A stretch of 64,000 nucleotides of DNA, taken from contig NC_049993.1 of assembly GCF_000003815.2 (NCBI RefSeq), forward strand, positions 13,803,526-13,867,525, written 5' to 3'. Each line of letters begins with the position of its first letter. The stretch's first letter is position 1. Source of the DNA: Branchiostoma floridae. Its lineage: Eukaryota; Chordata; Leptocardii; Amphioxiformes; Branchiostomatidae. The notes under the pieces are model-generated. The model searched no databases. It saw only the letters and a program-made list of their open reading frames with translations, and had not been told where the DNA came from. Of this stretch, positions 19,341 to 60,176 are shown one piece after another. Both the position numbers and the translations under genes were made by a program.

Positions 19341-19656
19341 TTAATTCTTGTGTGCCTTGTTGGTCTTGAAGGAGACCTGCAACACCCGTCCTCCTAGACA
19401 GTAGCCGTTCAGCTGGGCGATAGCAACCACAGCCTCGTCGTAGTGCGCCATCGTCACAAAACCGAAGCCTTTGCACTTGTTTGTCTGGAAGTCGCGGATC
19501 ACCTTCACATTGGTGACAGCGCCGAATGGGCCAAAGAGCTGCCACAGTACGCTGTCTTCAGTGTCTGGGGCCAGGTTGTACACGAAGATACAAAAGCCAG
19601 TGCCGCCGTTCGGAATGTTTCCAACGCCCATAGGGTCAGCGCCCATTGGAGAGTAT
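19341..19656 (-). CDS. elav: ELAV coding exon 5 (RRM3 and stop)
   Basis: The acceptor is TTTGTTACAG before 19656; one base (A) completes the Arg codon begun in exon 4. The exon encodes residues 227-330: a short hinge tail [18 protein letters not shown], then RRM3 with RNP2 IFVYNL and RNP1 KGFGFVTM, ending KTNKAHKN and TAA (19341-19343). The end matches the KTNKAHKS-type C-terminus common to ELAV proteins. Confidence 0.97.
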
Positions 19657-59500: not shown

Positions 59501-60176
59501 TATCTAATATTATGATGGAAAACAAAAGAATTAATGATTGTATAAATGCATGTTTACTTCAGACTAATACAAAGGCAAAGTTTATCCTGGCAAGGTCTAC
59601 ATATATATATGTATACAGGTCATAATCACAAATTTTGCAAATGACTATAGGGTAAAGGGTGAATTGATGAACCTTACAGGCTTCAAAATACANNNNNNNN
59701 NNNNNNNNNNNNNNNNNNNNNNNNNNNNNNNNNNNNNNNNNNNNNNNNNNNNNNNNNNNNNNNNNNNNNNNNNNNNNNNNNNNNNNNNNNNNNNNNAAAG
59801 AATGTAAACATATATATGGTAGTTGAACTCACACCACTACCAGTGGACTAGCCTCCTGCTATAGTATAGAGCTATAGAAATGGAGGTAGGCACTGCCTTA
59901 AACTTTTTGTGTAGAACATCAAAAAAGACTTGGAAGGGTTTTGATTAAGTACTCAACTAATATGACAGAAAACAGACTTATACAAAGCCCAGGCTATAAT
60001 ATCTGACCATTTTTTTAATCTCCTTAATGTGAAAACTTTTATTTTTTCTGTAGGAAGTGATGACTGTTCTGAGGACGCTGTGGTGGGAAACGTCAACAAA
60101 TTCTGTGTGGTCCCGCCGGGGTACAACTCCCAGCCACGCAGGGGACATCTCATCTTTGATGCCTGCTTTGAGAGCG
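44548..60176 (+). CDS. AGBL4: Cytosolic carboxypeptidase 6 (AGBL4/CCP6), 5' part
   Basis: Partial gene: a short first coding exon (44548-44569, or alternatively 44824-44845) joined in phase 1 to exon 2 at 60054-60176. The peptide runs MADKKDSGSDD, then GNVNKF, PPGYNSQP and ends GHLIFDACFESG. The last stretch is the strongly conserved start of the N-terminal domain of the M14 deglutamylases, and GHLIFDACFESG with the preceding GNV-KY/F and QPKKG-like words is specific to CCP6. The enzyme shortens polyglutamate side chains on tubulin and other proteins and is prominent in brain and ciliated cells. The zinc-binding catalytic exons lie beyond the window. The gene diverges from ELAV. Confidence 0.93.
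44824..44845 (+). CDS. AGBL4: AGBL4 first coding exon, alternative candidate
   Basis: ATG at 44824 with A at -3 and G at +4. Encodes MDRESGN plus one base, then donor G|GTGAGG. Phase 1 also fits exon 2 (MDRESGNGSDD). An in-frame TGA at 44743 lies upstream with no ATG between. It has exactly the same length (22 nt) as the exon at 44548. Either it is a genuine alternative promoter/exon, or one of the two is chance. Confidence 0.4.
45823..45939. repeat. Foldback inside the 1.15-kb unit
   Basis: Perfect 17-bp inverted repeats, gctacgcggtttggggc at 45823-45839 and its complement at 45923-45939. Probably a mini-transposon nested in, or part of, the surrounding element. Confidence 0.7.
46483..46679 (-). 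other. Coding-like terminal exon of unknown protein inside the 1.15-kb unit
   Basis: After an acceptor-like TTCTGAATTTTAG, a minus-strand frame runs about 65 codons to TAA at 46483-46485. It includes KSVYPVYSVYELLRHTIPPV, a DLGPLDCSRN segment and GELSEHHAMHGQARRLAAF. The mix of residues looks like a real globular protein rather than random translation, but I do not recognise the family. Further frames at 46155-46440 on the same strand are open but of poorer quality. It could be a gene fragment captured by the element. Confidence 0.3.
47487..47783. repeat. Tandem duplication, two units of 137 and about 160 bp
   Basis: Unit 1 starts at 47487 and unit 2 at 47624 with 'cacatttttcattcacaat'. They are nearly identical except for about 21 extra bases in unit 2 (around 47731-47751) and a few substitutions. 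The near identity points to a recent event. Confidence 0.85.
48240..48500. repeat. Degenerate G/T-rich 'ggttcagtt' simple tract
   Basis: Dozens of imperfect copies of words such as ggttcagttc, ggtcagtttg and ggtcagctc, almost all in one orientation, giving strong strand asymmetry. A similar tract occurs near 49725-49830. Probably a decayed short satellite. Confidence 0.6.
49208..49685. mobile_element. hAT-like MITE, long copy (478 bp)
   Basis: Ends read TATGGCTGGGTAC and the inverse of GTACCCACCCCTA, related to the element at 3879. Flanked by a perfect 8-bp duplication, tctagccc, at 49200-49207 and 49686-49693. The interior has 'aggtccag', 'ggaccggtccaac' and 'atggtccatttcg' words shared with the shorter copy. 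No transposase. Confidence 0.85.
51180..51381. mobile_element. MITE with 'cagggttg' end, truncated by assembly gap
   Basis: Begins cagggttggacaact and continues 'cacttgtcctattgggcaag' and 'ttttcacttgccca', matching the minus strand of 23880-24198. Its other end is lost in or beyond the gap at 51382-51639. Confidence 0.65.
51382..51639. other. Assembly gap (258 N)
   Basis: Run of N. Reading frames crossing it are meaningless. Confidence 1.
52230..52860. promoter_or_regulatory. Large GC-rich noncoding island in AGBL4 intron 1
   Basis: About 600 bases with frequent CpG, short AT-rich sites such as 'tttattactcgg' and 'caatttatcgtggggtgggt', and 'gatatggcgccattaaaacgg'. No exon recognised. It resembles the islands around ELAV, and a distal enhancer is a reasonable guess. 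Confidence 0.35.
53550..53900. promoter_or_regulatory. Noncoding island in AGBL4 intron 1
   Basis: Moderately GC-rich, with homeodomain-like 'ctctaattcaattagcatgc' (53787-53806). Open frames on the plus strand lack splice sites. Candidate enhancer. Confidence 0.3.
54110..54480. promoter_or_regulatory. GC-rich island with E-boxes and an X-box-like site
   Basis: Contains at least three E-boxes of CACCTG/CAGGTG type between 54235 and 54325 and GTTGCTAGGGGTAAC at 54354-54368, which resembles an RFX X-box. Located in AGBL4 intron 1. Candidate neural or ciliary enhancer; function inferred. Confidence 0.4.
55030..55865. repeat. Minisatellite, six units of about 133-143 bp plus a remnant
   Basis: The word 'catttatgtcctagcagaag' and relatives recur, with units starting near 55034, 55167, 55301, 55441, 55577 and 55720 and a partial one at about 55850. 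Each unit also has 'actagttccaaaggttat' and 'ttgccaaaacttccagaata'. Divergence between units shows it is not very recent. Minus-strand frames across it repeat the same peptide motifs only because the DNA repeats. Confidence 0.9.
56418..56957. mobile_element. Outer eroded inverted-repeat element
   Basis: The left edge 'gcacacaataccata' mirrors the right edge 'tatagtattgtgtgc'; inner words 'gggtgagcctaatg' and 'gggcaagccttatg' also correspond. It encloses the younger element at 56526-56918. Confidence 0.5.
56526..56918. mobile_element. Young MITE with perfect 31-bp terminal inverted repeats (393 bp)
   Basis: Ends 56526-56556 and 56888-56918 are exact inverse complements, starting CACCTTTCTCACGCGGCGG. 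Flanked by tata on both sides, so a TA or TATA target duplication. No transposase frame. Perfect ends suggest recent insertion. TA targeting fits a Tc1/mariner-like or related family. Confidence 0.85.
57230..57440. promoter_or_regulatory. GC-rich island with donor-like words in AGBL4 intron 1
   Basis: Contains gtccaggtgagt (57270-57281) and cgccaggtaagaatg (57296-57310), both ideal plus-strand donors, then a CpG-rich block. No acceptor-bounded coding exon in phase with AGBL4 was found. It may be an unrecognised noncoding exon or an enhancer. Confidence 0.25.
58390..58480. repeat. Dispersed repeat fragment shared with 6380-6490
   Basis: Contains 'cagtaatacttgaagtatg' and 'gtgttcaagacattcttga'. 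A partial tandem echo follows ('aagtatgaacacttcag' twice, near 58425 and 58487). Confidence 0.5.
58860..59310. promoter_or_regulatory. GC-rich noncoding island in AGBL4 intron 1
   Basis: CpG-rich block of about 450 bases with 'ccccgcgtaattgacatatt' (59132-59151) and several 'cggggaaa/tggggaaa' words, about 1 kb before exon 2. No exon recognised. Candidate regulatory element. Confidence 0.35.
59693..59796. other. Assembly gap (104 N)
   Basis: Run of N in AGBL4 intron 1, about 260 bases before exon 2. Confidence 1.
60054..60176 (+). CDS. AGBL4: AGBL4 coding exon 2
   Basis: 123 nt, acceptor TTTTTTCTGTAG, donor GCG|GTAAGA, phase 1 at both ends. Encodes the completed Gly, SDDCSEDAVVGNVNKF, then PPGYNSQPRRGHLIFDACFE, Ser and one base of the next Gly. 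The GHLIFDACFESG block continues as NLGRV in CCP6; that next exon is not found before 64000. Confidence 0.95.

Follow-up and report, generated by a model that had tools for sequence, protein, structure and literature searches.

ELAV is a neuronal RNA-binding protein, and AGBL4 (CCP6) is an enzyme that shortens glutamate chains such as those on tubulin. In vertebrates ELAVL4 and AGBL4 presumably lie divergently, head-to-head, and we take the human gene order to be SPATA6-AGBL4-ELAVL4-DMRTA2-FAF1. In stickleback, the order given in PMC10516590 is Agbl4, then Bend5, then Elavl4, and PMC5897035 places human intron variants of AGBL4 at chr1:49.12 Mb and of ELAVL4 at chr1:50.09 Mb. The concept of the genomic regulatory block, or ancient microsynteny, is treated in PMC8851819, and such pairs consist of a neural or developmental gene long kept beside an unrelated gene.

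We analysed a stretch of 64,000 nucleotides of the lancelet Branchiostoma floridae (the window; C15:13803526-13867525, C15 being contig NC_049993.1) and searched the whole genome (513.4 Mb, 431 contigs). A lancelet fluorescent protein, its identity borne out against solved structures, had 71 exon matches in this genome, distributed over C4, C17, C14 and C3 and at best 89% identical, and the GFP family model had none; on the fluorescent-protein matches the genome is taken for that of a lancelet. As in the vertebrate AGBL4-(BEND5)-ELAVL4 neighbourhood, with its presumed divergent orientation, an ELAV-family gene and AGBL4 are linked and divergent in lancelet, which also likens the locus to the ancient microsyntenic pairs described above. 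Regulatory blocks, however, are recognized by their enhancers and conserved non-coding elements, whereas the lancelet pair is known from its genes and a CpG-rich gap alone.

The ELAV gene and its family

The ELAV gene lies on the minus strand and comprises five coding exons with AG/GT borders, running from window position 33375 down to 19341. The exon at 33174..33375 encodes the first half of RRM1 and has its first ATG, the start codon, at 33366; it is preceded by a splice acceptor and gave a genome match of 98%. It is followed by exons for the second half of RRM1 (24706..24809), the first half of RRM2 (23694..23847) and the second half of RRM2 with the hinge (21694..21919), and by a last coding exon with RRM3 and, included in it, the stop codon (19341..19656), whose relatives in the PDB are RRM3 of ELAVL1 and of Drosophila Elav. 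The spliced product of 329 residues contains three RRM_1 stretches in a 2+1 arrangement by Pfam, and its closest solved structures are HuC, HuD and ELAVL1. It passes the NCBIfam model ELAV_HUD_SF (TIGR01661) with 520.8 bits against a cut-off of 279.1, while the sex-lethal model, at 243.3 bits, stays under its cut-off of 486.2. The Rfam search of the window returned 0 matches.

A whole-genome search with ELAV returned 16 matches, five of which are the gene's own exons; the other 11 reach at most 45 bits and at most 48% identity, the latter over 56 residues, and on these values a second ELAV gene was rejected. A single ELAV gene was thus found in the B. floridae genome, in contrast to the four ELAVL genes of vertebrates, and one ELAV gene in this species is also what PMC8553928 describes. 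The first-pass annotation had marked the locus as the pro-orthologue neighbourhood of ELAVL4. This holds for the neighbourhood and fails for the gene itself, since ELAVL1-4 jointly have the sole lancelet ELAV as their pro-orthologue and only its neighbourhood is that of ELAVL4.

An alternative hinge microexon of ELAV is reported in lancelet in PMC8553928. The published consensus had no match between 21720 and 19656, the interval between RRM2 and RRM3, and a looser scan yielded two candidates, both poor.

The AGBL4 gene and its relatives

On the plus strand, exon 2 of AGBL4 is clear at 60054..60176. A probable first coding exon, encoding MADKKDS-G, was placed at 44548..44569 as a candidate on the grounds that its phase fits exon 2 and that a GT donor follows; an alternative candidate, encoding MDRESGN-G, has the same phase and a GT donor at 44824..44845. 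The remaining exons follow one another in order past the window, again on the plus strand, from C15:13875569 to about 13930850. First come three exons that encode the N-terminal domain (C15:13875569, 13876928 and 13877582) and a short exon near 13904.9 kb, and then exons carrying HPGE (13913.2 kb), NPDGVYL (13915.5 kb), DLNRHW (13919.4 kb), DIHAHS (13927.3 kb), CYTLE (13930.0 kb) and KLGRNVARTFLDFY (13930.8 kb), so that the gene spans about 83 kb from exon 1 to the KLGRNVARTFLDFY exon. Catalytic exons lying elsewhere in the genome had been named beforehand as evidence against the assignment of the plus-strand gene to AGBL4; they proved instead to lie downstream in the same gene, extending for about 63 kb past the window.

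Active M14 enzymes carry zinc-binding and catalytic motifs of the form HxxE, H and E, and all three (HPGE, DIHAHS and CYTLE) were found in successive AGBL4 exons. In the spliced protein the CCP N-terminal domain (PF18027, 43.1 bits, cut-off 23.2) precedes the peptidase M14 domain (PF00246, 73.2 bits, cut-off 21.6). An exon-by-exon genome search with the peptidase M14 family missed the AGBL4 exons and gave 85 matches elsewhere.

In principle the plus-strand gene could belong elsewhere in the CCP family, or a stray AGBL4 exon could be all that the window holds, given that exon 2 by itself is short and that the nearest solved structure is CCP5. We regard this as highly improbable, because the catalytic exons follow exon 2 in order and because CCP5 is a separate gene on contig C2, which over the same stretch scored 106.5 bits to human CCP5 versus 65.4 for the C15 gene. 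CCP1-3 carry a long N-terminal extension, whereas the CCP N-terminal domain of the plus-strand gene starts at residue 43 without one. The 74% identity of the lancelet protein to human AGBL4 (435 residues, gapless) also points away from this alternative, as a lead only. When the spliced AGBL4 was searched against the genome, nine of 15 matches fell on its own exons (78-98% in the alignments) and six lay elsewhere (30-56%), the best of them being the CCP5 gene on C2 at 56%, with other CCP genes at most 53% identical. Both a stray fragment and CCP5 were therefore rejected on the ordered downstream exons and the C2 gene, the plus-strand gene is most probably AGBL4, and one AGBL4 gene was found in the lancelet genome.

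Within the catalytic part, two homologous 50-base exons occur in tandem, ANTNFNRDAVKAGTGR at C15:13928375-13928424 and EQTSFNRDDEKAGTGR at C15:13929069-13929118. They are identical at 34 of 50 bases, have AG/GT borders and the same phase, and differ by AV versus DE in mid-exon and in their first residues. As the use of both would shift the reading frame, they should be mutually exclusive, and we consider that they probably are. In the ten codons that the copies share (FNRD and KAGTGR), all four base changes, counted by eye, are silent, which suggests that selection keeps both exons.

Several repeats were observed in the AGBL4 introns. In the first intron, the two copies of a direct repeat, at window positions 45673 and 46710 and so about 1.04 kb apart, lie around a CpG-rich segment at 45201-47050, and perhaps represent an inserted element. 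The stretches 55029-55851 and 63097-63787 are tandem arrays, their repeat units measuring about 134-143 and 178 bases.

Geometry of the pair and its surroundings on C15

The coding ends of ELAV (minus strand) and AGBL4 (plus strand) face each other head-to-head 11,172 bases apart when the AGBL4 end is taken at candidate exon 1 (44548), which agrees with the roughly 11 kb between facing 5' ends proposed in the first-pass annotation. As the ATG exon of ELAV opens with a splice acceptor, the true 5' end and promoter of this gene should lie further upstream, inside the gap towards AGBL4, which would bring the two promoters to within less than 11 kb of each other.

The gap contains a CpG-undepleted domain at 39151..44600 with 263 CpG and an observed/expected ratio of 1.02, versus 0.57 for the whole of the 303 kb examined. 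It is the most CpG-rich 5.45-kb stretch within these 303 kb, and none of 5104 equally long, non-overlapping sliding windows elsewhere in them reached 263 CpG (maximum 214). The domain runs up to the probable exon 1 of AGBL4. In animals with gene methylation, CpG-undepleted DNA often corresponds to unmethylated promoters, and judged by its composition the domain is a probable promoter domain. Such DNA is common here, about 20% of 500-base windows passing the threshold and two other domains exceeding 4.3 kb. Shared regulation of ELAV and AGBL4 is possible, with the CpG domain as a hint.

The other members of the presumed human neighbourhood are found on the same contig at a distance. Both genome matches of SPATA6 are at C15:7.89 Mb, 5.9 Mb from ELAV, and all three of FAF1 are at C15:11.58 Mb, 2.2 Mb from ELAV, unlike in the vertebrate AGBL4-ELAVL4 neighbourhood. 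The four DMA-domain matches in the genome are likewise all on C15, at 1.18, 1.21, 13.578 and 13.594 Mb, and among them the match at 1.18 Mb scores highest for the DMA domain and looks more DMRTA-like by eye. Two DMA-domain genes (C15:13577555 and C15:13593916) were observed 229-245 kb from ELAV and are less DMRTA-typical than the gene at 1.18 Mb; a close DMRTA2 neighbour was accordingly rejected, and our claim for this family is same-chromosome linkage only. Since the SPATA6, FAF1 and DMA matches share the contig and are scattered along it, the local order has been shuffled and the pair has not: chromosome-level linkage is kept, local order is largely shuffled, and ELAV and AGBL4 are still adjacent and divergent. 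Whereas Bend5 lies between the two genes in stickleback, no BEN domain of the BEND5 type was found on C15, the three matches in the genome being on C8, C7 and C14, and a BEND5 gene nested at the lancelet locus was rejected.

Nearer to the pair, OMA1-like and class C receptor genes lie less than 60 kb from ELAV on its 3' side, and to our knowledge neither is a neighbour of ELAVL4. The class C receptor scored 32.3 bits by Pfam, just below the cut-off of 33.5, and three of eight neighbour fragments (both OMA1-like and one PIGG-like) had no Pfam family match, the names OMA1-like and PIGG-like being our presumptive assignments. Just 3' of AGBL4, at C15:13.951-13.996 Mb, a repeated set of open frames resembling collagen stalks and C-type lectin domains was seen and named by eye. 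Further on, at C15:14.00-14.065 Mb, Pfam identified KRI1, a GH31 enzyme and GET3. We take human KRI1 and GET3 to be at 19p13, near ELAVL1 and ELAVL3, and their presence near lancelet ELAV would agree with a single ancestral region from which several ELAVL loci derive.

Inheritance and retention of the pair

The suggestion of an ancient link in the first-pass annotation is borne out in that inheritance is favoured over chance: with full shuffling of 600-1500 genes, an assumed number, two genes would be both adjacent and divergent with a probability of 0.0003-0.0008. We are thus highly confident that the pair was inherited from a chordate ancestor, a judgement drawn from one invertebrate genome and the presumed vertebrate orientation. 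Searches of the literature found no paper on AGBL4 together with amphioxus or with microsynteny, and in the partial texts covered, which lay outside the list of Irimia et al. 2012 and supplements, the ELAV-AGBL4 pair was not named as ancient; it may already stand in some published table. The lancelet pair illustrates well a type of conserved gene neighbourhood that is already known.

Under the explanation that we consider best, a single ELAV/Hu gene would have stood head-to-head with a single AGBL4 (CCP6) gene in the ancestral chordate, with the lancelet locus as the present-day copy of the pair, and after the vertebrate genome duplications AGBL4 would have stayed beside the ELAVL4 copy and not beside the other ELAVL copies. 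Either the CpG-rich gap or the long AGBL4 introns might contain control DNA for ELAV, so that a break between the genes would sever ELAV from part of it, with AGBL4 acting as either a bystander or a co-regulated partner. Taken as a whole, this account of an inherited pair held by regulatory interlock has in our judgement an even chance of being correct, and once inheritance is granted, retention for regulatory reasons is itself close to a toss-up.

The pair could equally be a remnant of the ancestral order of genes on a chromosome that has been conserved, with no functional tie between its members, a passive retention whose likelihood we place a little under one half. The chromosome-wide linkage of SPATA6, FAF1 and DMRT indicates that some neighbours survive by luck alone, and the regulatory link between ELAV and AGBL4 is one that we infer, which counts for passive retention. 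Against it, the tested neighbours FAF1 and SPATA6 have moved megabases from ELAV, a qualitative contrast of few genes. The two possibilities are about equal, and because the other tested neighbours moved while the pair did not, we lean slightly towards regulatory interlock.

A more specific proposal is that the CpG domain of the gap would be a single ancestral promoter/enhancer domain driving ELAV and AGBL4 in differentiating neurons, and that its indivisibility would have prevented the two genes from separating ever since a time that preceded the vertebrate genome duplications. We think this rather unlikely; if true, the gap domain would couple ELAV, the neuronal RNA-binding protein, with AGBL4, the deglutamylase.

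The lancelet locus dates the link between ELAV and AGBL4 to before the vertebrate genome duplications and reveals which vertebrate ELAVL copy retained the old neighbourhood. It also suggests that BEND5 either arrived later or was lost locally. Compact, and with a single gene of each type, the locus lends itself to tests of how the ancestral neuronal ELAV gene is controlled.
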